Of a stretch of 64,000 bases of DNA, positions 3,860-33,746 are shown in pieces. Both the position numbers and the translations under genes were made by a program. Position 1 is the stretch's first letter; each line of letters begins with the position of its first letter. Source of the stretch: Streptomyces sp. NBC_01460 (GTDB taxonomy: Bacteria; Actinomycetota; Actinomycetes; Streptomycetales; Streptomycetaceae); NCBI RefSeq assembly GCF_036227405.1, contig NZ_CP109473.1, forward strand, positions 5,952,001 to 6,016,000, given 5' to 3'. The notes under the pieces are model-generated. The model was not told where the DNA came from. It saw only the letters and a list, made by a program, of their open reading frames with translations, and ran no database searches.

Positions 3860-3931
3860 TGGGCTATGGTGTAATTGGCAACACTACGGTTTCTGGTACC
3901 GTCATTCTAGGTTCGAGTCCTGGTAGCCCAG
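3860..3931 (+). tRNA. tRNA-Gln (CTG), copy 1
   Basis: A 72-nt cloverleaf. The acceptor TGGGCTA pairs with TAGCCCA, the anticodon loop is TTCTGGT with anticodon CTG, and the T arm contains GGTTCGAGTCC. The discriminator is G and CCA is not encoded. It is identical to the copy at 4168-4239. Confidence 0.95.
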
Positions 3932-3949
3932 CGCAAAACCAAGTAACAC

Positions 3950-4022
3950 GCCCCCGTTGTGTAGCGGCCTAGCACGCTGCCCTCTCACGGCAGTAGCGCC
4001 GGTTCGAATCCGGTCGGGGGTA
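3950..4022 (+). tRNA. tRNA-Glu (CTC), copy 1
   Basis: A 73-nt cloverleaf. The acceptor begins GCCCCCG and ends CGGGGGT plus discriminator A (the outermost pair is G-U), the anticodon loop is CTCTCAC with anticodon CTC, and the T arm contains GGTTCGAATCC. CCA is not encoded. All three copies in the cluster are identical. Confidence 0.95.
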
Positions 4023-4082
4023 CAGATCCTTCCCGCGAGAACATCTGGGTCGCACCCACGTTCTTGATGCAGGATCGCTAGG

Positions 4083-4155
4083 GCCCCCGTTGTGTAGCGG
4101 CCTAGCACGCTGCCCTCTCACGGCAGTAGCGCCGGTTCGAATCCGGTCGGGGGTA
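4083..4155 (+). tRNA. tRNA-Glu (CTC), copy 2
   Basis: Identical in all 73 positions to the copy at 3950-4022. It lies 60 bases downstream of that copy and 12 bases before the second tRNA-Gln. Confidence 0.95.
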
Positions 4156-4167
4156 CTTGTCACACCA

Positions 4168-4239
4168 TGGGCTATGGTGTAATTGGCAACACTACGGTTT
4201 CTGGTACCGTCATTCTAGGTTCGAGTCCTGGTAGCCCAG
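4168..4239 (+). tRNA. tRNA-Gln (CTG), copy 2
   Basis: Identical to the tRNA-Gln at 3860-3931. The spacer to the next tRNA-Glu (20 bases) resembles the spacer after copy 1 (18 bases), which points to duplication of a Gln-Glu unit. Confidence 0.95.
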
Positions 4240-4259
4240 CGCAAGTCAGCAGTAACCAC

Positions 4260-4332
4260 GCCCCCGTTGTGTAGCGGCCTAGCACGCTGCCCTCTCACGG
4301 CAGTAGCGCCGGTTCGAATCCGGTCGGGGGTA
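4260..4332 (+). tRNA. tRNA-Glu (CTC), copy 3
   Basis: The third identical tRNA-Glu and the last gene of the cluster. A hairpin terminator follows at 4350-4377. Confidence 0.95.
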
Positions 4333-4349
4333 CAACACAGCAGTACGAC

Positions 4350-5392: not shown

Positions 5393-6817
5393 ATGGGTAG
5401 GACACTCGCGGAGAAGGTCTGGGACGACCACGTCGTCCGGCGCGCCGATGGCGAGCCCGACCTCCTCTTCATCGATCTGCACCTGCTGCACGAGGTGACC
5501 AGCCCGCAGGCGTTCGACGGCCTGCGCCAGGCCGGCCGCCCGGTGCGGCGTCTCGACCTCACCATCGCCACCGAGGACCACAACACCCCGACCCTCGACA
5601 TCGACAAGCCGATCGCCGACCCCGTCTCCCGCGCCCAGCTGGAGACCCTGCGCAAGAACTGCGCGGACTTCGGCGTCCGGCTGCACCCGCTGGGTGACGT
5701 CGAGCAGGGCGTCGTGCACGTGGTCGGCCCGCAGCTCGGCCTGACCCAGCCCGGCACCACCGTCGTCTGCGGCGACTCCCACACCTCCACCCACGGCGCG
5801 TTCGGGGCCCTGGCCTTCGGCATCGGCACCAGCCAGGTCGAGCACGTCCTGGCCACCCAGACGCTGCCGCTGGCCCGCCCCAGGACCATGGCGATCACCG
5901 TCGAGGGCGAACTCCCCGACAGCGTCACCGCCAAGGATCTCATCCTGGCCATCATCGCCCGGATCGGCACCGGCGGCGGCCAGGGCTACATCCTCGAATA
6001 CCGCGGCTCCGCCATCGAGAAGCTCTCGATGGAAGCCCGGATGACCATCTGCAACATGTCGATCGAGGCCGGCGCCCGCGCGGGCATGATCGCCCCCGAC
6101 GAGACCACCTTCGCCTACCTGCAGGGCCGCGACCACGCCCCCCGGGGCGAGGAGTGGGACGCGGCGGTGGAGTACTGGAAGACACTGCGCACCGACGACG
6201 ACGCCGTCTTCGACGCCGAGGTCGTCATCGACGGGACCGCCCTCGCGCCGTTCGTCACGTGGGGCACCAACCCGGGCCAGGGCGCACCCCTGTCGGCCGA
6301 CGTCCCCGACCCCGCTTCGTACGAGGACGCCTCGGAGCGCTACGCCGCCGAAAAGGCCCTGGAGTACATGGGGTTGACCGCCGGCCAGCCGCTGCGTGAG
6401 ATCAGCGTGGACACGGTGTTCGTGGGCTCCTGCACCAACGGACGCATCGAGGACCTGCGCAACGTGGCCTCGATCATGGACGGCCGTAAAGTCGCCGACG
6501 GCGTACGGATGCTGGTCGTCCCGGGCTCCGTCCGGGTCGCCCTGCAGGCCGTCGAGGAGGGCCTGGACAAGGTCTTCACCGCGGCCGGCGCCGAATGGCG
6601 GCACGCGGGCTGCTCGATGTGCCTCGGCATGAACCCCGACCAGCTGGCCCCCGGTGAGCGCTCCGCCTCCACCTCGAACCGGAACTTCGAGGGCAGGCAG
6701 GGCAAGGGCGGCCGCACCCACCTGGTCTCCCCGCAGGTCGCCGCCGCCACCGCCGTGCTGGGCCATCTGGCCTCGCCCGCCGACCTGTCCGACGACCGCA
6801 CGCCCGCCGGAGTCTGA
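5393..6817 (+). CDS. leuC: 3-isopropylmalate dehydratase large subunit
   Basis: The protein has 474 residues. With LeuD it isomerises 2-isopropylmalate to 3-isopropylmalate in leucine synthesis. The three [4Fe-4S] ligands are visible: Cys347 in GSCTNGR, and Cys407 and Cys410 in AGCSMCLG. Substrate motifs such as [12 protein letters not shown] are intact. The ATG at 5393 follows GGAGGGAAAG, a strong ribosome binding site; the frame extends upstream but that part is not conserved-looking. leuD follows 5 bases later. Confidence 0.97.
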
Positions 6818-24234: not shown

Positions 24235-24272
24235 GGAAACCCCTCGGTGCGCCCGCGCACCGGGGGGTTTCC
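24235..24272 (+). terminator. Terminator after rnc
   Basis: GGAAACCCCTCGGTGCG pairs with the complement ending GGGGGTTTCC around a short loop; the GGTTT side serves as a weak T-run. Confidence 0.85.
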
Positions 24273-24348
24273 GCTGTCCCGTCACGTCCTCGCTGTCCTG
24301 TCACGTCCTTCCTGTCCGTCCCGTCGCTTCTCCGAAGGAGTGCCCGCC

Positions 24349-25206
24349 GTGCCCGAACTGCCCGAGGTCGAAGTCGTGCGGCGGGGGCTGGAGCGCTGGA
24401 CCGCCGGGCGCACCGTCGAGGCGGTCGAGGTGCTGCACCCGCGTGCGGTCCGGCGGCACCTCGCGGGGGGCGCGGACTTCGCGGCCCGGCTCCAGGGTCT
24501 GCGCTTCGGCACGGCGATGCGCCGCGGCAAGTACCTCTGGGTCCCCCTCGACGAGGTGGAGTCCTCGCTCCTGGGACACCTCGGCATGAGCGGTCAGCTG
24601 CTCGTCCAGCCCGAGGACGCCCCCGACGAGAAGCACCTGCGGATCAGGATCCGCTTCGACGACCCGCTCGGCACCGAGCTGCGCTTCGTCGACCAGCGGA
24701 CGTTCGGCGGGCTGTCGCTGCACGAGAACACGCCTGACGGTCTGCCCGACGTCATCGCGCACATCGCCCGCGACCCCCTCGACCCGGCCTTCGACGACGC
24801 CGCCTTCCACCTGGCGCTGCGACTGCGCCGTACGACGGTCAAGCGTGCCCTGCTCGACCAGTCCCTGATCAGCGGTGTCGGCAACATCTACGCGGACGAG
24901 GCGCTGTGGCGCAGCCGGCTCCACTACGAGCGGCCGACCGCGACCCTGACCCGCCCGAGGACGGCGGAGCTGCTGGGCCATGTCCGGGAGGTCATGCGGG
25001 CGGCCCTCGACCAGGGCGGCACCAGCTTCGACAGCCTGTACGTCAACGTGAACGGCGAATCCGGGTACTTCGACCGGTCGCTGGACGCCTACGGCCGCGA
25101 GGACGAGCCCTGCCGCCGGTGCGGTACGCCGATGCGCCGCCGGCCCTGGATGAACCGCTCCAGCTACTTCTGCCCGCGCTGCCAGCGTCCGCCGCGGCCT
25201 TCCTGA
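24349..25206 (+). CDS. mutM: Formamidopyrimidine-DNA glycosylase
   Basis: The protein has 285 residues. After the start, [13 protein letters not shown] provides the catalytic Pro and Glu. The H2TH region [14 protein letters not shown] is near 163, and the C-terminal zinc finger has CRRC and CPRC pairs. It removes 8-oxoguanine and nicks abasic sites. The GTG follows GAAGGAGTGCCC. It converges with the HxlR gene, only 9 bases apart. Confidence 0.96.
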
Positions 25207-25215
25207 CCGTCCTGT

Positions 25216-25623
25216 TCAGGCCTCGTGCGCCGCGTCGTAACGGCTCCGGGCCTCCATGACCTCGGGCATCCGCCCCTCGACGAGCTGGATGAGGTCCATC
25301 AGCCGGGCCGTGACCTCGTGGCCGAGCGGCGTCAGCGCGTAGTCGACACGCGGCGGGTTGGTGAGCCTGGCGTCCCGGTGGACCAGGCCGTCGCGCTCCA
25401 GCGCGTGGAGCGTCCGGGAGAGCATCTTCTCGCTGACCCCGTCGATCCGGCGCCGCAGTTCGTTGAAGCGGGCGCCGTTCTCGTGGAGCGCGCCGAGGGT
25501 CAGGCTGCCCCAGCGGCCCGTGGCGTGTTCCAGGGTTCCGCGTGAGGGGCACTGCCGCGAGAAGACGTCGAAGGGGGACTCGCCCTCGTCGTCACGCACG
25601 GAGTCCGTCTGTGTCTCACCCAT
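25216..25623 (-). CDS. HxlR-family transcriptional regulator
   Basis: The protein has 135 residues and a winged-helix HxlR domain: one N-terminal cysteine (FSRQCPSRGTLEH), then RFNELRRRIDGVSEKMLSRTLHALERDGLV as the recognition region, and VDYALTPLGHEV as the wing. The single cysteine could sense oxidants or aldehydes, as in other HxlR members. The gene it regulates is not evident because its upstream neighbour was displaced by the inserted element. Confidence 0.88.
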   Translation of the reverse strand: MGETQTDSVRDDEGESPFDVFSRQCPSRGTLEHATGRWGSLTLGALHENGARFNELRRRIDGVSEKMLSRTLHALERDGLVHRDARLTNPPRVDYALTPLGHEVTARLMDLIQLVEGRMPEVMEARSRYDAAHEA

Positions 25624-25781
25624 ACCGCCAGCTTACGCCCGTGCAGCGCTCACTTCCGGTGAGCGCTGCACGGACGGGTGCCGTCCGCGTAGTCGACCGG
25701 GACGCGTAGGAGGCCGTGGTCGCGGGCGCGGAGGGAACGGGCGCCGGTCGTCCCGCAGCCGGCGGGGGCGTCCGGACAGGA

Positions 25782-25817
25782 GAAGCCCCCTGCCGTCCTG
25801 GGACGGCAGGGGGCTTC
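25782..25817. terminator. Terminator left of the element (originally after the CAP-domain gene)
   Basis: Perfect 17-base arms (25782-25798 and 25801-25817) with a 2-base loop. With the element removed in thought, this hairpin would lie about 30 bases after the stop of the minus-strand CAP-domain gene, so it is probably that gene's terminator, now 6.5 kb away. Confidence 0.75.
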
Positions 25818-25846
25818 GTGGTTCGTGAAGCGGCTGTCCTCTGCTC

Positions 25847-25857
25847 AGAAGCCGAAG
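25847..25857 (+). repeat. attL core
   Basis: AGAAGCCGAAG, the same 11 bases as at 32367-32377. With one mismatch the identity extends to 14 bases (CTYAGAAGCCGAAG). Confidence 0.75.
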
Positions 25858-25875
25858 AAGTGACGGGTCGTTCTC

Positions 25876-25885
25876 CTGACCTGCG
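25876..25885 (+). repeat. Arm-type repeat, left end
   Basis: CTGACCTGCG occurs here, 19 bases inside the attL core, and again at 32349-32358, 8 bases inside the attR core. A shorter copy, TGACCTGC, is at 25908-25915. These are candidate arm sites for the integrase N-terminal domain or sites for Xis. Confidence 0.6.
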
Positions 25886-26097
25886 ATCTTGATGGTGGCC
25901 AGTGCTGTGACCTGCAATTAAGCTGTTGACGGTTGTCAGCGTTGGTCACCCTTGAGCGCCCCCGGACGGCCCGGCGGCGGCCCGGGAAGGTGCTCCTACC
26001 GGAGCTTGAACCAGGGGCTTGCGCTCATGCCCCCGGGGTGGCCGAAGTCTGGATATGCGTTCATCGTGACGCCCTGCGCTCGGAAGTCATGTGGACG

Positions 26098-26133
26098 CCT
26101 GAGGGGCAGGTTCCGGAGAACCTGCCCCTCAGG
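26098..26133 (-). terminator. Terminator of the small basic protein gene
   Basis: Perfect 16-base arms (26098-26113 and 26118-26133) with a 4-base loop, directly abutting the stop codon of the minus-strand gene at 26134. Confidence 0.8.
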
Positions 26134-26307
26134 TCACTTGCCCTTCGGCTTGTGCTTGGTCGGGTCAACGATCTTGTAACCCTGGCCAGCCTTGGGCGTC
26201 GGCGGAAGGGGCTTGCCCTTCACGGCCGTGACCTCGGTCTTCGATCCGGGGACCTTGTACTGCCCCGACTTCGGCGCGGGCGTACCCGGCGTCAGCTTCT
26301 TAGCCAT
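26134..26307 (-). CDS. Small basic YjzC-like protein
   Basis: A 57-residue, lysine- and proline-rich protein: MAKKLTPGTPAPKSGQYKVPG, then KGKPLPPTPKAGQGYKIVDPTKH. The pattern PxSGxY ... G.xxPPTPKxGqgy.ivDPT resembles the YjzC family of small soluble proteins of unknown function; this is a by-eye match. The ATG at 26307 follows AGGTAGGTGATC; an in-frame GTG 9 bases upstream is an alternative. It has its own terminator and no neighbour on its strand, so it looks like cargo of the element. Confidence 0.6.
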   Translation of the reverse strand: MAKKLTPGTPAPKSGQYKVPGSKTEVTAVKGKPLPPTPKAGQGYKIVDPTKHKPKGK

Positions 26308-26412
26308 CCTGATCACCTACCTTTCGAGCTGGATACCGCTCGACGTCGGCCCCACCCTTCAGAGGGAAGGGGGAAGCCGTGTAGGGTCGTTGGGCGCCTA
26401 GGAACGCATCAC

Positions 26413-26465
26413 GACCCCAGTTCGAACAGGTACCGACCCCGCGTCAGTCCTTCCGAACTGGGGTC
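26413..26465 (+). repeat. Hairpin, terminator-like
   Basis: Perfect 12-base arms GACCCCAGTTCG (26413-26424) and CGAACTGGGGTC (26454-26465) with a 29-base loop, followed by TTTCG. Confidence 0.55.
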
Positions 26466-26699
26466 TTTCGCGCTGTTGAGAAGGATAGCGCCTCCTGTGG
26501 CTCAAATGGGGTACACGAACCACAAGTTGTGGGCGTGTCGGGCCATCCAGCCACTAGATGTAGGGCTAGCTGCCAACCTTTCAGACTATCGGCAGCCACT
26601 GACAGTCAGGGGTGCAGCGGCGTCTTTCCTTCCCCCACCACTCGCCCCAGCTCCCATCCCGTCCGCCTTCGACCCACACTCTGTGGAGCGGTCGTGGTT

Positions 26700-26749
26700 C
26701 AGGGCGTCAAGGTGGAGCGCGCCACTGTACGAACGACCTTGACGCCCTG
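26700..26749. repeat. 14-bp inverted repeat
   Basis: CAGGGCGTCAAGGT (26700-26713) and its exact complement (26736-26749) are separated by 22 bases. No T-run follows. Confidence 0.7.
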
Positions 26750-26964
26750 GGCCGCGACTGCTCGGCTTTGCCTGGGTCGAAGGTGGTCGGGATGGGGGCC
26801 ACCACGACGCTCACCACGTTCCGGCCGGCACTCGCGAACGGCGCCCCATCCATCCCGGTGCCGTAGCGCCCCCGCCGGAGGCATGTCTTGAAGCCGCGGG
26901 CTTTGGTCTCGACTCATGCCTTTCGGCCTATCCACTGCGGGCGCGCGTCGGCGGCGGCAGCGAC

Positions 26965-27030
26965 GAGCGGGCCGGAGGCAGGAGCGCGGGAGCGGCCAGA
27001 GCCGGGAAGCGCGCCCGGCGGAGCGGAGCG
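26965..27030. repeat. Cluster of five GAGCG motifs
   Basis: GAGCG occurs at 26965, 26982, 26990, 27021 and 27026 in a G/A-rich tract. The spacing is irregular. Confidence 0.45.
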
Positions 27031-27083
27031 CAGCCGGGTGCCTTGATGAGGTAGAGAAACCTGTAACCCGGCCTGCGTGCTGG

Positions 27084-27782
27084 CTAGGAGATCTGCTCGG
27101 CGGAGAGGGCGTCCGCGATGGCCTGCATCTCATGGGTGATGGCGTTGGCACCCAGAGAAGCGAACGTCTCGGCCTTGGTGGGCTTGTTGGCGTAGCCGAT
27201 CACGCTGGCTCCAGCAGCCCGCGCAGCTTGTATGTCAGTCACTGAGTCACCGATCAGAGCGCATACAGAGACGTCCACGTGCATCAGTTCAGCGGCGTGG
27301 ATCAGCGGATACGGGTTCGGCTTCATGAGATGCGGCTGCTCGGATGGGCGGCCCACGATCTCGGTGACGTATCCCCCCAACCCATGACGGTCCAAGAAGG
27401 CTCTTACACATTGGGCAGAGTTGTTGCTCACCACCGCAATCCCTCGGTTGGACTCCTTAGCCGCCAGCAGCGCAGCCACAGAACCCGGCGTCGGAGCTCC
27501 AGCAACCTCAACCGCCCGAACCTCTGCTGCCGTTAGGGCCTGCTCGATCCTCTGGCCCAAGGCTGCGTCCGCCTCGTGGGCAATGCTGAGTACCTCGATG
27601 GGGTCGGTCGTTCCCATCGCCTTCGCCCCCGCAGCTCCATCTTCAGCCGAAAGCAGCCGCGCCAGCTCGTTGGCAACTTGCGGTGCCGGCAGTCCGGCGA
27701 ACACATCGCAGAGAGGCCCGTCGAAGTCGAACAACAGGACACGGGCTCCGATGAGCGCCTGGCTGAGCGGGTCAGTGGGCAT
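27084..27782 (-). CDS. HAD-family phosphatase of the element
   Basis: The protein has 232 residues. All HAD motifs are present: LLFDFDGPLCDVF near residue 15, VVSNNSAQCVRAF near 129, MKPNPYP near 161, and IGDSVTDIQAARAAG near 187, so it should be an active small-molecule phosphatase. The start MPTDPL overlaps the end of the upstream GntR gene by 11 bases, which couples their translation. In pSAM2 the gene beside the GntR repressor korSA encodes a Nudix hydrolase (Pif) that blocks transfer between like strains; this HAD protein occupies the equivalent place. A shared role is inference. Confidence 0.85.
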   Translation of the reverse strand: MPTDPLSQALIGARVLLFDFDGPLCDVFAGLPAPQVANELARLLSAEDGAAGAKAMGTTDPIEVLSIAHEADAALGQRIEQALTAAEVRAVEVAGAPTPGSVAALLAAKESNRGIAVVSNNSAQCVRAFLDRHGLGGYVTEIVGRPSEQPHLMKPNPYPLIHAAELMHVDVSVCALIGDSVTDIQAARAAGASVIGYANKPTKAETFASLGANAITHEMQAIADALSAEQIS

Positions 27783-28638
27783 CGAGATCGAAGTCCCTTC
27801 CGATGGTTCCCCACACGCTGTCGAACCACATGCCAGCCTGCTGCACCTGTTGGGCACCGCTGGAGGATTCGCCATCGTTGAGGGAGTGGTGGAACAGCAC
27901 AGTGTCCTTGCCCACCAAGTCGTAGATCTCGATGGTTTCGCCCTGGGCGACGACCTTGTTGGGCCGGATCGGGTAGTACCCGAAGAAGGCGTCCTCACCG
28001 TTGATGACGTACAGCTTGAAGAAGGGCGTCCCGCTGTGGACGCGCACCTGGATGCGGGTTTCTGAGACGAGGCCCAGGTGCTTCAGCTCAGCGAAGGAGT
28101 CACGGATGCTGCGGGTGTAGCTGATCATGATCTCCCGCATGCGGTCGCGGAGACGCTGATCATCCTGGCCGTCCGTCATCCGGACCGGCGCGGCCTGGGG
28201 CACCGACATGTCCGGGACGAGTATCCGCATGGTGATGCTCTGCGGCGTCAGCCTGCCTACTCGGATCTTGTCCAGTGGCTCTTGGAGTGCACCATGCAGG
28301 GTTTCGCTGGAGAACCCAGCGAAGTCGATGGTGACCTCATCCCGACTGAACGCCTGCTCTACATACGGGCGAAGACCAGAGGGACGCTCGGTGCGGTTAC
28401 GGACGTAGACCCCGCTGCCCTTTCGGGAGATGACAAGGCCCTCGTCCTCCAAGTCCCGCAAGGCCCGTTGGATCGTGGCCCGCGCGAAGCCGTACAGCTC
28501 GGTTAGCTCCTTGTGGGAGGGGAGCTTCTCTCCGGGGGCGATTCGGCGGGTGCGGATGGCGGCGCTCAGGCTGCTTGCCACCTGTTCGTACGGCGGTCGG
28601 TCGTCGTCTGGATCCAACGGGTCGGGAACGTAGGTCAT
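27772..28638 (-). CDS. GntR-family repressor of the element
   Basis: The protein has 288 residues. Residues about 15-80 form a GntR winged helix (AIRTRRIAPGEKLPSHKELTELYG, RATIQRALRDLEDEGLV, SGVYV). The 200-residue C-terminal part is not a clear UTRA or FCD domain. It is divergent from the rep-xis-int operon, with 182 bases between, and the control region contains several dyads, one inside the operon promoter. By analogy with KorSA of pSAM2 it probably keeps the element integrated and silent. Downstream it is coupled to the HAD gene. Confidence 0.88.
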   Translation of the reverse strand: MTYVPDPLDPDDDRPPYEQVASSLSAAIRTRRIAPGEKLPSHKELTELYGFARATIQRALRDLEDEGLVISRKGSGVYVRNRTERPSGLRPYVEQAFSRDEVTIDFAGFSSETLHGALQEPLDKIRVGRLTPQSITMRILVPDMSVPQAAPVRMTDGQDDQRLRDRMREIMISYTRSIRDSFAELKHLGLVSETRIQVRVHSGTPFFKLYVINGEDAFFGYYPIRPNKVVAQGETIEIYDLVGKDTVLFHHSLNDGESSSGAQQVQQAGMWFDSVWGTIGRDFDLDAH

Positions 28639-28692
28639 TTCTCGATGGTAGGTGACCGGAGGCGGACTAGGACAGTCATGTCAGCCAAGTTG

Positions 28693-28721
28693 TTGACATG
28701 GCTAGCCATGCTCTCTAACTT
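28693..28721 (+). promoter_or_regulatory. Operon promoter of the element
   Basis: TTGACA (28693-28698) and TAACTT (28716-28721) are exactly 17 bases apart, close to consensus and the best promoter match in the window. It points right, to the gene starting at 28821. Confidence 0.8.
28697..28710. promoter_or_regulatory. Palindromic operator inside the promoter
   Basis: CATGGCTAGCCATG is a perfect 14-bp palindrome overlapping the end of the -35 box and the spacer. Nearby dyads are AGCCA/TGGCT (28683-28687 and 28699-28703) and CCAACC/GGTTGG (28731-28736 and 28747-28752). The position fits direct repression by the GntR protein. Confidence 0.65.
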
Positions 28722-28820
28722 GGGACATGGCCAACCAAGCTAGTCAGGTTGGTCACGTCGGGGCGGCACCCTACGGCCAAGCAGATGTGCCGCCCCTCGT
28801 CCCCTGAGGGAGCTTCCATC

Positions 28821-29276
28821 ATGCCTGCAACACTCTTAGCTGCGCGTACCAGTCCGGACACCTCCGCTGAGCGTGACTTGCTCGCAACCTTGCGGATGAC
28901 GGGTGCTGAACGGACGGTCGCGCTGTACGCCTCGGACATGCCCACGGGCTTCTCCTGGTCGAGGGGCATCACACCGCAGGTGATCGCCTGGGTAGTGCAG
29001 GGCGTTGACCGACTCGGCTTCGAAGACGTGTACCGCTCCGGTGTGGAGGCGCAGCACTACAGGGTTCTGCGTCTGGCCGGTCAGGTCTCGACAGCGGCGC
29101 GGCGCTGGTTTCGTGGTCGTTTCCCCGACCGTGCGCGGCTGGACTGTGTGGAGCAGGCCAACGCCATGCTGACCTTCCGCCTGGGCGACTACGAGCCGGT
29201 CTCCGGCTACGTCGGGGACGACACTTTCCGGGTGTATCGCGCCTACGGCGATGACGTGGACGAGGTGGGCGTGTGA
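28821..29276 (+). CDS. Element protein of unknown function
   Basis: A 151-residue protein that I do not recognise. The N-terminal 25 residues look flexible. The remainder has helical, basic stretches (QHYRVLRLAGQVSTAARRWFRGRFPDRA is the most basic part) and an acidic C terminus. No signal, membrane segment or cysteine cluster is seen. The ATG at 28821 follows TGAGGGAGC. As the first gene after the regulated promoter, overlapping the next by GTGA, it may control or assist replication or excision. Confidence 0.75.
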   Translation: MPATLLAARTSPDTSAERDLLATLRMTGAERTVALYASDMPTGFSWSRGITPQVIAWVVQGVDRLGFEDVYRSGVEAQHYRVLRLAGQVSTAARRWFRGRFPDRARLDCVEQANAMLTFRLGDYEPVSGYVGDDTFRVYRAYGDDVDEVGV

Positions 29277-29485
29277 CCGCCTTCCCCGATGACGCCCTGC
29301 ACGCGGCTGAGTGGGCGGACGAGAGGCGTACCGAGCAGATCGGCATGTACCTCGACGCTCACGACGTCCACCCCTACACCCGGTTCTTCACCGTGATCGA
29401 TGACGCCCACTACGCCGAGGAAGACGCCAAGGTGCGCGGGCTCTACCCGCCGATCGGGCACGGCTACCCGAGGGAGGACCAGTGA
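29273..29485 (+). CDS. Small acidic element protein, unknown function
   Basis: A 70-residue acidic protein with His and Tyr in its C-terminal half (HYAEEDAKVRGLYPPIGHGY). No domain is recognised. It overlaps the preceding and following genes by 4 bases each (GTGA), so its expression is tied to rep. Such tight packing argues that it is real despite its size. Confidence 0.7.
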   Translation: MTAFPDDALHAAEWADERRTEQIGMYLDAHDVHPYTRFFTVIDDAHYAEEDAKVRGLYPPIGHGYPREDQ

Positions 29486-30915
29486 CGGTCTTCCCCGTCG
29501 AGCCTTCGGCCGTGGCCGGTACTGCTGCGGTCGTGGGCACCGACCCCCTGACCCTGGCCGACCTCCTACGCGTCGCCAACGCTCCCGGTTTCGACCGGTG
29601 GCAGGAACAGGTACGCCGTACTGGTGGCTGCTCGGACCCGATCCACCTGGAGGGCATGACCACCACCCGCGACGCGAAGTCGGGACGGGTGCTCTACTCC
29701 TACAGCACCCAGGGCGAACCCGGCGGACGACTGCGGGTGGCCTGCGGGAACCGCCGTGCCTCCCGGTGCCCCTCCTGCGCCTGGACCTACGCCGGGGACA
29801 CCTTCCACCTGATCCGCGCCGGACTGACCGGCGACGTGAACAAGGGCACCCCCACCACGGTGCGCACGCACCCCAAGGTCTTCGCGACCCTCACCGCCCC
29901 CTCGTTCGGCCCGGTCCACAACCGCCCCACCCGTGGCGTCTGCCGGTGCGGCACCGAGCACCCCGAAGGCTCCCCGGATCTCGGCACGGCCCTCAACCCG
30001 AGCACGTACGACTACGCCGGTGCGGTGCTGTGGAACAACCACGCCGGGGACCTGTGGCGCCGCTTCACGATCTACCTCCGACGGGAGGTCGCCGCTCGCG
30101 CCGGCCTCTCCCAGAAAGCCTCGGCCGAGGAGTGCCGGATCTCGTTCGGGAAGGTCGCCGAGTTCCAGAAGCGCGGCGCGGTCCACTTCCACGCGATCGT
30201 CCGACTCGACGGCCCGGACGGCCCCGACACCACCCCTCCGCCCTGGGCCAGCGTCGCTCTGCTGTCGGACGCGATTCAGGCGGCTGCTGCCCGTGTGAGC
30301 GTGCCCGTTCCGCCTTCGGGCGCCCAACCGGCTCGGACGCTTCGGTGGGGTGCTCAGGTGGACGTGCGGCCGATCGGCGCGGACAACGCAAACGACGACC
30401 TGACCGAACAGGCGGTGGCCGCGTACGTCGCGAAGTACGCCACCAAGGCGGCCGAGACGACCGGCACCGTGGACCGGCGCATCGGAGAGCTGGCCGAACT
30501 CGACAAGCTCACCGACCTCCCCGACCACGCCCGGCGCCTCATCGGAGCGTGCTTCGACCTGGACGACGCCTACCCCGAACGCAAGCTCTGGCAGTGGGCC
30601 CACATGCTCGGCTTCCGGGGCCACTTCTCCACGAAGTCCCGCCGCTACTCGACCACCCTCGGCGCACTGCGACAGGTCCGGGCCGACTTCCGCGCCCGCC
30701 AGGAGCGCCGGGAACGGGGCCTGCCCGATCCGGACGACTCCCCGGAGGGCTCCACGCTGACCCTTGCCCACTGGACCTACGCCGGACACGGCCACACCCC
30801 CGGCGAATCCTGGCTCGCCGCCAACATCCACCGCGACATCCACACCAACCGCGAAACCGCCCGCGACGCACGCGCCGAACTCGAAGCGCTCGACGGATCG
30901 GAGGTGTGGGCATGA
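29482..30915 (+). CDS. repSA: RepSA-like rolling-circle replication initiator
   Basis: The protein has 477 residues and resembles RepSA of pSAM2. It has a zinc-ribbon-like part (ACGNRRASRCPSC, about 92-104), the HUH motif VHFHAIVRLDG near 234 and the tyrosine motif YVAKYATK near 314. These are the parts of a nicking enzyme that starts rolling-circle replication of the excised circle. The order zinc part, HUH, tyrosine is complete, so the protein should be active. It overlaps its neighbours by 4 bases on each side. Confidence 0.88.
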   Translation: MTVFPVEPSAVAGTAAVVGTDPLTLADLLRVANAPGFDRWQEQVRRTGGCSDPIHLEGMTTTRDAKSGRVLYSYSTQGEPGGRLRVACGNRRASRCPSCAWTYAGDTFHLIRAGLTGDVNKGTPTTVRTHPKVFATLTAPSFGPVHNRPTRGVCRCGTEHPEGSPDLGTALNPSTYDYAGAVLWNNHAGDLWRRFTIYLRREVAARAGLSQKASAEECRISFGKVAEFQKRGAVHFHAIVRLDGPDGPDTTPPPWASVALLSDAIQAAAARVSVPVPPSGAQPARTLRWGAQVDVRPIGADNANDDLTEQAVAAYVAKYATKAAETTGTVDRRIGELAELDKLTDLPDHARRLIGACFDLDDAYPERKLWQWAHMLGFRGHFSTKSRRYSTTLGALRQVRADFRARQERRERGLPDPDDSPEGSTLTLAHWTYAGHGHTPGESWLAANIHRDIHTNRETARDARAELEALDGSEVWA

Positions 30916-31109
30916 GGCGTCCGCTCCCCGATCGCTATCTGACGCCAGTTGATCTGGCTGACCTCCTTGGCGTCCCGGTCGAGACGGTCTATCAGTGGCG
31001 CCGCAAGGACACCGGGCCCCGCGGCTTCCGCGTCGGCCGGCACCTCCGCTACGACCCCGAAGACGTGCGCGTCTGGGTCGCCGCGCTGATGGACAAGGAA
31101 GCTGCCTGA
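30912..31109 (+). CDS. xis: Excisionase (MerR-like HTH)
   Basis: The protein has 65 residues and a helix-turn-helix of the excisionase type: YLTPVDLADLLGVPVETVYQWRRK, then FRVGRHLRYDPEDVRVWV. It would bend attachment-site DNA and direct the integrase to excise the element. ATGA overlap with rep; the stop and the integrase start share one base (TGATG). Its place between rep and int is standard for AICEs. Confidence 0.9.
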   Translation: MRRPLPDRYLTPVDLADLLGVPVETVYQWRRKDTGPRGFRVGRHLRYDPEDVRVWVAALMDKEAA

Positions 31110-32344
31110 TGGCCGGACACATCCAAGACCGCTGGTACAAGACCGAGCCGGGCCCGAACGGCAAGACGGTCAAGGTCGCGACCGAACGTCACGGCATCGG
31201 TATGCGCTACCGCGCGCGATACGTCGGTCCCGATGGCAGCGAGAAGTCCAAGAGCTTCCCGGACAAGCAGAAGCGCAAGGCCGAGACCTGGTTGGCGAAC
31301 ATCGAGGCCGACATGTCCCGTGGCGACTACATCGCTCCGGAGGCTGGTAAGGCCACTTTCGAGCAGTACGCCACGCAGTGGATGAAGACGCAGATGACTG
31401 ACCCCTCCACTCGGGAGTCCGTCGAGATGCGATTGCGTCTTCACGCGCTCCCGCACATCGGCAAGCGCCCCATCGGTTCGTTCAACCCGACACACATTCG
31501 ACTTTGGATGCGGATCCTTGAGGACGCGGGACTCTCGCCTGCATATCGGCGCGGCATCTTCGCTCACGTCTCGACCGTCTTCACGGCCGCTGTCGAAGAC
31601 CGGGTGATCCGGGCCAATCCATGCAGCGCAAGGTCTGTGAAGGCTCCCCGCCTCGACCCGCGCAAGGTCAAGCCTTGGTCTGGTGATCAGGTCAAGGCTG
31701 TGCGGGCTGCCCTGCCTGAGCGGTATCGGGCGCTTGTCGACCCCGCCGCCGGGTGCGGTCTTCGGCAGGGGGAGGTGTTCGGCCTGGCTGTCGAGGACAT
31801 CGACTTCCTCGGCGGTGTCGTGCACGTGGTCCGACAGGTGAAGCTCCTGCGCAACCGGCCCGTGTTCGCACCGCCCAAGGGTGGCAAGGAGCGGGAGGTT
31901 CCCCTGCCGGAGTCCATCGCCTTCGCGTTGGCCGGCCACCTCACGCAGTACCCGGCGGCGGAGGTCACCTTGCCCTGGAAGTCTTTGGACGGCCCGCCGA
32001 TTACCGCTTCTCTGATTTTCCGGAGCCCTGAGGGCTTTTCCCTGAACCGGAATCGCTTCAACGACCGGCAGTGGCGCCCTGGTCTCCGTGCTGCCGGTAT
32101 CGCCAACGGGAGGGATAACGGGATGCACGCGCTACGGCACTTCTATGCATCCGTGCTGTTGGACGCCGGGGAAAGCATCAAGGCCCTGAGCGAGTACCTC
32201 GGCCATCACGATCCGGGCTTCACGCTGCGGACCTACACGCACCTCATGCCGGCCAGTCAGACGCGTACGCGAGCCGCCGTGGACGCAGTGTGGGCCGCCC
32301 CGGTCGCCAATGACGGCCCCGAGACGGCCCACGAGAGTTCGTAG
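31109..32344 (+). CDS. int: Tyrosine site-specific integrase
   Basis: The protein has 411 residues. An N-terminal arm-binding part and a SAM-like core-binding domain (about 85-180) are followed by the catalytic domain: Arg in CGLRQGEVFGL (near 215), HALRHFY (His-x-x-Arg, near 340) and the tyrosine in TLRTYTHLM (near 373). It catalyses integration and excision. The end of the gene is 22 bases from the attR core, normal for this family. It is the last gene of the overlapping operon. Confidence 0.95.
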   Translation: MAGHIQDRWYKTEPGPNGKTVKVATERHGIGMRYRARYVGPDGSEKSKSFPDKQKRKAETWLANIEADMSRGDYIAPEAGKATFEQYATQWMKTQMTDPSTRESVEMRLRLHALPHIGKRPIGSFNPTHIRLWMRILEDAGLSPAYRRGIFAHVSTVFTAAVEDRVIRANPCSARSVKAPRLDPRKVKPWSGDQVKAVRAALPERYRALVDPAAGCGLRQGEVFGLAVEDIDFLGGVVHVVRQVKLLRNRPVFAPPKGGKEREVPLPESIAFALAGHLTQYPAAEVTLPWKSLDGPPITASLIFRSPEGFSLNRNRFNDRQWRPGLRAAGIANGRDNGMHALRHFYASVLLDAGESIKALSEYLGHHDPGFTLRTYTHLMPASQTRTRAAVDAVWAAPVANDGPETAHESS

Positions 32345-32348
32345 GTCG

Positions 32349-32358
32349 CTGACCTGCG
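32349..32358 (+). repeat. Arm-type repeat, right end
   Basis: CTGACCTGCG, identical to 25876-25885. In the reconstructed circular attP it would lie left of the core, in the same orientation as the right-hand copy. Confidence 0.6.
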
Positions 32359-32364
32359 GAATTC

Positions 32365-33309
32365 TTAGAAGCCGAAGTCCTGCGTCCACCAGGGGCCGCC
32401 GGAGCCCAGGTGGACTCCCACTCCGAGCGTCTTGTAGTCGCAGTTGAGAATGTTCGCGCGGTGGCCTTCGCTGCTCATCCAGGCGTCCATCACGGCCTGC
32501 GCGTCGGCCTGACCGCGGGCGATGTTCTCGCCGCCGAGGCCCTCCACACCGGCCGCGTCGGCACGGTCCCAGGGGGTGGCGCCGTCGGGGTCGGTGTGAC
32601 CGAAGAAGTCGCGGGCGGCCATGTCGTCGCTGAAGTCCTGGGCGAGCGCGGTCAGCGCGGCGCTCGCGGTGACCGGACTGCAGCCGACCTTGGCGCGCTC
32701 CTGGTTGACGAGGCTGAGCACGGCGGCCTGGGCGGAGGTGGCGGACGGGCTCGCCGGCGCCTCGGCCTCACGGCTCGGGGTGGCCGACGAGGTCTTCGGA
32801 GCCGCCGGGGCCTTGGTCGCCGGGCCGGACGACGTGCTCTTCCTCGGCTCGGCCGCGGGGGCCTTCGTCCGCTCCGGCGTCTTCGTCGCCCGCTTCGAGG
32901 CGGTGGCGGAAGGCTTCTTGCTCGCCTTCTCGCTCGGGGTGGCCGAGGGGGACGTGGAGGGCGCGGCGGAACGGCCGGCACCGCGGTTGGCCTCGGCCGA
33001 CGCGGACGCCGAGGTGCGGCTGGTCGGTTCGGCGGACGCGTCGCCCTGGGTCAGCAGGTCGGGAGCACCGCCCGCGTGGACCTGGTCGGATGCCCCGCCC
33101 CCGCTGACGCTGTAGCTGCCGCCCCCGGGCAGCAGGCCGGAGGCGACAGCGACGGCTCCGACGGCCACGGCGGCCGAGACGCCGAGAAGTCCGGCGCGCA
33201 CGGGTATGCCGGTCCGCTTCTTCCGGCGAGCACTCCTGTGCCCCTCCGGGGCGTCCGCCGTGTACTGCTCAGCGGCGGGGGCCGCGCCTGCGCGTCGATG
33301 CCGTCCCAT
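32365..33309 (-). CDS. Secreted or anchored CAP-domain protein (host gene of the element)
   Basis: The protein has 314 residues. A basic cytoplasmic N terminus and one membrane segment (about 35-60) are followed by a Ser/Thr/Ala/Pro/Lys-rich linker (about 70-190) and a C-terminal CAP/SCP (YkwD-like) domain with FFGHTDPDGATPWDRADA, GENIARGQ and SSEGHRANILNCDY. Such proteins are extracellular; their biochemical role is unclear. The last codons and the T of the stop codon are the attachment core, and the element supplies TAA in place of the original TGA, so the protein is unchanged. Its terminator now lies beyond the element. Confidence 0.88.
   Translation of the reverse strand: MGRHRRAGAAPAAEQYTADAPEGHRSARRKKRTGIPVRAGLLGVSAAVAVGAVAVASGLLPGGGSYSVSGGGASDQVHAGGAPDLLTQGDASAEPTSRTSASASAEANRGAGRSAAPSTSPSATPSEKASKKPSATASKRATKTPERTKAPAAEPRKSTSSGPATKAPAAPKTSSATPSREAEAPASPSATSAQAAVLSLVNQERAKVGCSPVTASAALTALAQDFSDDMAARDFFGHTDPDGATPWDRADAAGVEGLGGENIARGQADAQAVMDAWMSSEGHRANILNCDYKTLGVGVHLGSGGPWWTQDFGF
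32367..32377 (+). repeat. attR core in the CAP-domain gene
   Basis: AGAAGCCGAAG, read on the minus strand as the codons for the terminal Phe-Gly-Phe and the first base of the stop. Confidence 0.75.
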
Positions 33310-33368
33310 GCGCTGTGCCTTCCTCGTGCTCCGGGCGTCGTGGCGACGTCACCGTATTCAAGATCAAA

Positions 33369-33386
33369 CTCACCCGTTCGGGTGAG
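33369..33386. repeat. Short hairpin between the CAP and acylphosphatase genes
   Basis: CTCACCCGTTCGGGTGAG folds with 7-8 paired bases. It lies in the 155-base divergent region and may be an operator or leader hairpin for either gene. Confidence 0.45.
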
Positions 33387-33464
33387 GCTATTGCGAGGGG
33401 ACCTTACGCCATGACGGATTGGGGCGAGGTGCTCGTGAAGCAATTGGCCGGTTAGCGTTCGGGC

Positions 33465-33746
33465 ATGAACGAAGACGCACGACTCGTCGTATGGGTACGC
33501 GGCCGAGTACAGCAAGTGGGGTTCCGCTGGTTCACCAGGGCAAATGCTTTGGGGATCGGGAAACTCACCGGCTTCGCCCTCAATCTCGACGACGGCCGGG
33601 TACAGGTGGTGGCCGAAGGGCCGCGTGAGAATTGCCACCGTCTGCTCGACTGGCTCGGCTCCGACGACACACCCGGCCGCGTCGACGGCGTCACTGAGAT
33701 CTGGGACACGCCGCGCGGCGGATACGAGGGATTCGCTATCCGTTGA
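33465..33746 (+). CDS. acyP: Acylphosphatase
   Basis: The protein has 93 residues. The phosphate-binding loop [11 protein letters not shown] (catalytic Arg) and the catalytic Asn in [15 protein letters not shown] are both present. It hydrolyses acyl phosphates such as acetyl phosphate or 1,3-bisphosphoglycerate. It is divergent from the CAP-domain gene. Confidence 0.93.

Follow-up and report, generated by a model that had tools for sequence, protein, structure and literature searches.

The 64-kb window analysed here (positions 5952001-6016000 of contig G000:C1, within the 8.8-Mb genome of Streptomyces sp. NBC_01460) carries a 6.5-kb element that resembles an actinomycete integrative and conjugative element (AICE). 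It is best explained, and with high confidence, as a TraB-less AICE-like element integrated at the 3' end of a CAP-domain protein gene by an integrase of a clade associated with this site, the encoded protein being spared (Table 1). Between two 11-bp repeats lie a small open reading frame (ORF), a HAD hydrolase, a GntR regulator, two ORFs of no recognised family, the replication initiator RepSA, an Xis-like protein and a tyrosine integrase. An initial annotation, made from the sequence of the window, had proposed that the repeats flank int, xis and rep, that the right repeat consists of the final CAP codons, and that the CAP protein is unaltered. All three proposals hold.

The attachment site

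The window contains two exact copies of the core AGAAGCCGAAG, starting at 25847 and 32367 on the + strand, and no third. On the minus strand the right core forms the end of the CAP gene: the last base of an Asp codon, then Phe-Gly-Phe, then the T with which the stop codon begins. The two ends part at the base immediately left of the core, with TC at attL (a TGA stop) and TT at attR (a TAA stop), so that the C-terminus WTQDFGF is kept. The 11-bp pair alone proves little because direct repeats are common in this sequence, with at least 60 families in 8.5 kb, and the case therefore rests on comparison.

The set with both ends placed comprises 15 elements: the window element, L031, and 13 of the 17 named CAP-site loci (at L039, L041, L047 and L052 no left end is seen). 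The elements range from 2.7 kb (L042) to 9.6 kb, and all 15 have the CAP-tail core at both ends. Because the 15, some of them closely related to one another, share this arrangement, it is beyond chance, and the ends first placed at 25847 and 32377 are correct. At the level of sequence, this comparison establishes both the ends of the element and its target.

Within the core, attL and attR are identical at positions 0 and 2-10 in all 15 elements and at position 1 in 13. To the left, they agree at position -1 in 12 elements and at -2 in 14; to the right, they differ at positions 11-13 (position 13 matches in 1 of 15) and agree again in all 15 at positions 14-15, a TG that seems to be kept by both attP and attB. 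An exact repeat of at least 13 bp, taking in the whole stop codon, is present in 10 of the 15, the window pair having diverged at one base of it. Core positions 2 and 4 vary between hosts (a Phe or Tyr codon; G or C) yet are the same at the two ends of any one element, which requires attP and attB to be identical there. Tyrosine recombinases need identity in the overlap, and the matched positions would accordingly place strand exchange within core positions 2-10. The motif GACCTGC is confined within the window element to the three copies in Table 1. Across the 15 elements its exact sequence is present in 8 at about +31 and in 13 at about +62, and 12 have it 16 nt to the left of the right core. 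These motifs are presumed to be the integrase arm sites.

The frequency of 11-bp repeats in the window might suggest that the pair is coincidental and that the true ends lie elsewhere, at longer repeats or at a tRNA gene, but this is scarcely credible given that the same ends recur in 15 elements and that the core letters, though variable between hosts, agree at the two ends of each element (positions 0 and 2-10). A tRNA attachment site was considered separately and ruled out: a search run with a positive control covered 600 nt downstream of each of 110 family integrase loci (52 nt for L061) and found no tRNA gene, and the tRNA genes of the window lie at 3860-4333. The CAP-tail pattern itself is present in 301 of 392 Streptomyces genomes, in single copy in all but two of them.

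By this account, the tyrosine integrase would recombine an element-borne attP core with an attB made up of the final codons of a CAP gene conserved in Streptomyces. Strand exchange would fall somewhere within the nine core positions at which attL and attR agree in all bounded elements. Exchange within those positions means that the element supplies a new stop codon, and at times the wobble base of the last codon, and leaves the CAP protein unchanged. Excision would likely proceed with the help of Xis, after which the circle would replicate via RepSA, and the TraB of a co-resident AICE would probably move the element between species.

Integrase specificity

The initial annotation had inferred that this integrase recognises a protein-coding 3' end and had suggested surveying its homologues for the same junction. 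A scan of named genomes by integrase alignment kept 80 loci out of 348 relatives. The CAP gene lies directly downstream in 17 of 17 loci with integrase identity of at least 73%, and in none of the 63 at 70% or below (tblastn, E ≤ 1e-8); at L041 the CAP match ends at residue 295 of 314, and at L061 just 52 nt downstream were available for the test. Across the genus, a family integrase is found at E ≤ 1e-100 in 179 of 392 Streptomyces genomes. When one locus was taken from each of the 30 best genomes, the top 13 were all at CAP (13/13) and the next 17 were not (0/17); this survey and the named-locus set overlap. There are 26 distinct integrases at CAP (the window's included) and 71 in the other rows, and all 30 loci compared that carry a clade integrase (26 distinct proteins) are at the CAP junction. 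The survey thus supports the inference, and the clade and its site go together in every locus compared.

A quick tree of 107 integrases places its 29 CAP rows on one side of a branch with SH-aLRT support of 92. A more careful tree of 62 rows is less favourable to one origin, its best topology needing two changes and a single change being sufficient in 52% of bootstrap trees. These trees make a single origin of CAP targeting likely without making it firm.

Empty sites, remnants and stray left ends

The annotation had also predicted that, in a strain lacking the element, the sequences on either side would join directly. Among 24 loci of relatives with the CAP gene (L002-L025), two (L002 and L004) carry an integrase of the CAP-site kind and L018 carries fragments of one. 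An HxlR or mutM match, corresponding to the left flank in the window, lies 58-168 nt from the CAP end in 9 of the 24, and L009 and L023 have no upstream neighbour within the stretch compared. The nine close spacings are taken as the empty site.

Remnants of the element are present at several of these loci. A profile drawn from the 15 elements, covering the 112 nt that adjoin the attR core on its left, also matches L018, L009, L007 and L005 (E 5.6e-21, 1.9e-19, 1.1e-8 and 6e-4, respectively), beside whose CAP genes there is no intact clade integrase. L018 is matched by a left-arm profile as well, and a right-arm motif was seen by eye in L006. Such remnants at element-free loci indicate repeated occupation of the site followed by erosion, and the copies compared form a decay series. 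The attL pattern occurs in 24 of 392 genomes, 11 of which are clade genomes. Eleven left ends among the remaining 13 match the left-arm profile, the exceptions being L181 and L184. Some of these stray left ends, in G244, G159 and G132, are decayed copies beside CAP or its neighbours. The arrangement in G255 is like that of a tandem junction: the attL pattern, 2.5 kb away from the CAP match, adjoins on its left a stretch resembling the right arm.

Several observations weigh against so tidy a picture. The gap between CAP and its upstream neighbour is 302-1073 nt in 10 of the 24 relatives' loci, so a clean join is not universal in element-free genomes, and no near-identical strain with an empty site was found among the genomes compared, the empty sites belonging to other species with a differing gap. 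Two of the 13 clade genomes (G019 and G072) have no exact attL pattern, and 13 of the 24 genomes with the pattern have no clade-level integrase. Finally, in at least three genomes, G404 (L166), G249 (L167) and G317 (L172), an arm-bearing left end (left-arm profile E 7e-11 to 2.7e-23), again with no clade-level integrase, lies on a different contig from the CAP match or 3 Mb away from it. These three may be second sites, displaced copies or products of broken assemblies. The left ends of G310 (L169) and G251 (L185) have a flank in common.

Given the few left ends found away from CAP, the integrase may not be strictly specific for it. The three displaced left ends, together with the flank shared by G310 and G251, would suit an integrase that recognises a motif present in several places, with the CAP gene merely its commonest landing place. 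We judge this improbable, as the stray left ends have no clade-level integrase and every locus compared that does have one is at CAP. The CAP gene end is accordingly taken as the main, perhaps only, site of the clade integrases.

Other branches of the integrase family (L056-L118 and L132-L148) lie near the tails of glnA, hisN, nusG, murA-like, gpm, dapA and peptidase genes. Single examples of convergent neighbours identified by family models are glutamine synthetase (L096, L115), HisN (L076), NusG (L078), phosphoglyceromutase (L111), DapA (L057), a TAP-like peptidase (L065), a DNA-alkylation-repair protein (L060) and a phospholipase-C-like protein (L112); the neighbour at L079 is MurA-like, a 300-aa piece of it scoring under the MurA cut-off. 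Labelling by C-terminal tags gave 13 GlnA rows, 8 HisN, 4 NusG, 4 peptidase, 2 MurA and 2 Gpm, with 45 left without assignment. For 51 of the 63 non-CAP loci there was enough sequence to place the ends by direct repeats. One of the top two repeats falls at the neighbour's stop codon in 3 of 3 loci labelled nusG (L078, L083, L089), 1 of 3 labelled hisN (L076), the one labelled gpm (L106) and L115, and in none of those labelled glnA (0/8), murA (0/1) or peptidase (0/2). Long repeats with no assigned site are present at L080, L098, L104, L116 and L118. The stop-codon repeats would thus support only NusG, HisN, Gpm and L115 as sites; elsewhere adjacency is no proof.

Mobility and the absence of TraB

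No TraB (FtsK/SpoIIIE, PF01580) was found between the element ends by an ORF family scan, by tblastn or by a six-frame search with a hidden Markov model (HMM) of four TraBs. The passages of Ghinet 2011 (PMC3218068) considered here require Int, Tra and Rep of an AICE. The window element has a recombinase gene beside an att site and an AICE-type replication gene (NF041486, 836 bits), and its combination of int, rep and att sites with no tra is that of a mobilizable or defective AICE-like element. The initial label of "AICE-type" therefore stands as regards RepSA, the Xis-like protein, the tyrosine integrase and the att sites, and fails as regards TraB: published criteria would not admit an element that lacks it as a complete AICE. 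The window element is instead AICE-like and perhaps mobilizable.

TraB is present in three relatives at the CAP site: L051 and L053, each encoding TraB and a DUF2637 protein, and G391, in which the match lies between the integrase and attL. The four-TraB HMM detects it in 2 of the 15 bounded elements, G391 being outside that set. A copy of the window element in another species, G373, is 95.5% identical over 26634-32728 in a single alignment, with aligned flanks of 72-87% identity. Near-identity stops at the right core: scored in bins of 50 nt, it stays at 0.96-1.00 from 31900 up to that core, and the CAP gene beyond gives 0.38-0.92. The only TraB match in G373 (E ≤ 1e-20) lies 3.6 Mb from the element. 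Unless both copies lost TraB separately from near-identical elements, this alignment implies that a TraB-less copy has moved between species.

The genome that carries the window has two further loci, beside tRNA-Arg genes, that encode TraB, an SpdB-like protein, a RepSA (66% and 71% identical to that of the window element) and a distant integrase: L159 at about 4.35 Mb and L160 at about 3.64 Mb. Both are called AICEs here from their gene content and tRNA-Arg adjacency. Such candidate helper TraBs are common, being present in 12 of 13 hosts and 123 of 150 genus genomes.

Two points weigh against the main account. These same counts do not support any enrichment of helper TraB among hosts, and the left ~750 bp of the window element are mostly unlike the G373 copy, indicating that part of the element has been exchanged and placing the left end outside what that comparison tests. 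One alternative accepts integration at CAP as real and treats the element as the dead remnant of a once complete AICE, immobilised by loss of TraB. The TraB-bearing relatives at the same site (G391 by position) and the decayed copies in several genomes would fit such a history, and decay of AICEs is described in the parts of Choufa 2022 (PMC9513070) drawn on here. We consider it possible but on balance unlikely, because int, xis and repSA remain open reading frames, neither att site is missing, the TraB-less G373 copy is 95% identical between much more divergent flanks, and 12 further TraB-less bounded elements keep both ends, some with genes lost or replaced (L042, at 2.7 kb).

A structured non-coding block

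Left of the HAD hydrolase gene, the element contains a 434-nt structured block. It is 93% identical to L160:12254-12689 and 80% identical to L159:12113-12556, and in the G369 element it is 92% identical whereas 28754-33746 is only 74% identical. Folded as DNA, 26630-27075 gives a z of -6.0. In nine aligned copies of its 63-pair hairpin, 99.6% of cells pair, a figure favoured by taking the structure from the window's own fold; 9 pairs are changed on both sides, compared with 2.7 ± 1.2 in shuffles and at most 2 in slid versions. The 434-nt block with this covarying hairpin of ~150 nt is common to the TraB-less elements and the TraB-bearing AICEs of the same genome. Block-like DNA occurs in 21 of 72,556 plasmid records, 19 of them from Streptomyces, with at least 80% of the block covered in two.

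On these features, the block is most plainly read as a candidate single-strand origin of rolling-circle replication, and it could instead be a transfer locus. The excerpts of Choufa 2022 (PMC9513070) used here state that no clt, the motif recognised by TraB, has been described for pSAM2. Short tandem repeats were considered as such a motif and find no support, as a single 8-mer of the element occurs three times in 250 nt, in the ORF/rep region. We tentatively suggest, as a speculation more likely wrong than right, that a TraB-less satellite lineage, located mainly at the CAP tail, spreads between Streptomyces species through the TraB of resident AICEs with the block as its recognition site. 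If true, the block would be a transfer locus of pSAM2-type AICEs.

Gene content and flanks

Table 1. Features of the element and its flanks (positions in the window).
Feature	Position	Strand	Remarks
Fpg/MutM-type glycosylase, left flank	24247-25206	+	
HxlR-type regulator, left flank	25216-25623	-	close to CAP in element-free genomes
Window element	25847-32377		6.5 kb; GntR, RepSA, Xis-like, tyrosine integrase between repeats
attL core AGAAGCCGAAG	25847-25857	+	preceded by TC, the former CAP stop context (TGA on the minus strand)
attP left arm	25858-25935	+	AAGTGACGG, followed by GACCTGC at 25878 and 25909, both presumed arm sites of the integrase
Small ORF (57 aa), cargo	26134-26307	-	no Pfam/NCBIfam match; weak phrog_3202
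Non-coding structured block (434 nt)	26634-27067	+	~150-nt hairpin, arms 26650-26713 / 26736-26799
HAD-family hydrolase, cargo	27084-27785	-	PF00702/PF13419
GntR-family regulator	27772-28638	-	PF00392
ORF without family match	28821-29276	+	
ORF upstream of rep (70 aa)	29273-29485	+	same cluster in 3/15 bounded elements (crude ORF caller)
RepSA replication initiator, pSAM2 type	29482-30915	+	NF041486 836 bits against a cut-off of 700; PF20199
Xis-like helix-turn-helix protein	30912-31109	+	PF12728, phrog_66; TIGR01764 excise under its cut-off
Tyrosine integrase, CAP-site clade	31109-32344	+	PF00589
Right-arm GACCTGC motif	32351-32357	+	starts 16 nt left of attR core
attR core AGAAGCCGAAG	32367-32377	+	last CAP codons
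CAP-domain (YkwD-like) protein, target gene	32365-33309	-	C-terminus WTQDFGF; PF00188; TIGR02909 under its cut-off

The GntR regulator of the element presumably resembles KorSA of pSAM2. The CAP gene and int are convergent, their stop codons separated by 20 bp. A 17-bp perfect inverted repeat, read by eye at 25782-25817, lies 29 bp left of the attL core and is perhaps the CAP terminator, now 6.5 kb away from CAP. Rfam at gathering scores gave no match in 25600-32600. The tRNA genes of the window are a cluster of five for Gln and Glu, which the element does not use. Two other CAP-site elements have an ORF for an HNH endonuclease near rep/int, at L031:13630-14280 (a Pfam match) and at positions 5422-5766 of the L055 element (the same cluster). 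The L031 element, in G019, also encodes a 600-aa protein with no Pfam match (L031:14357-16159), and has no RepSA match.

Relationship to known elements

The initial annotation had stated that most AICEs target tRNA genes. This is true, and sites in protein-coding genes are already in print. In the parts of Ghinet 2011 (PMC3218068) drawn on, the vast majority of AICEs with tyrosine integrases are at tRNA genes, the pSLS subfamily excepted, and the corresponding text of Choufa 2022 (PMC9513070) gives 51 insertion sites, of which 36 are in tRNA genes, 14 in protein-coding genes (14/51) and one intergenic, the site in rlmN having 11-nt repeats. The CAP tail is therefore a new address and not a new principle. 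No CAP-gene site was seen in searches of the open-licence PMC literature; supplementary tables (Choufa Table S5) were outside that scope and may hold one.

The pSAM2-type AICEs share with the window element RepSA, an Xis-like helix-turn-helix protein and a tyrosine integrase near one end, as far as their description in Ghinet 2011 (PMC3218068) was followed; unlike them, the window element has no TraB or Spd genes and occupies a protein-coding gene rather than a tRNA gene. As described in the sections of Choufa 2022 (PMC9513070) used here, AICE03 of strain RLB3-6, in rlmN, and other protein-gene AICEs likewise combine 11-nt direct repeats, a Streptomyces host and a protein-coding target, and there, as here, a different integrase goes with a different site. 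AICE03 differs in its target gene and in belonging to a family defined by TraB. The elements termed DAICEs in the same source lack one of the int/tra/rep signature genes, as does the window element with int and rep but no tra; in contrast to them, the TraB-less CAP forms recur at one site in many species, and transfer between species can be inferred. The pSLS integrase subfamily also integrates at non-tRNA sites, a likeness drawn from its description alone in Ghinet 2011 (PMC3218068). PAISt of S. turgidiscabies, from the portion of PMC4057263 considered, is a Streptomyces island at the 3' end of the protein gene bacA, and differs in being large, in using an 8-bp palindromic site and in its target gene.

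A GntR regulator is presumably a further feature in common between the pSAM2-type AICEs and the window element, which is real and well bounded, at a new address, and of a kind already known. It offers a clean natural case of an integrase using the tail of a protein gene while the protein is spared, because the element carries a copy of the last CAP codons. Since the CAP tail is so widespread in Streptomyces and nearly always occurs once, the integrase/attP pair could serve as an integration tool, and the TraB-less forms provide a means of testing whether AICE-like elements transfer with the aid of a helper.

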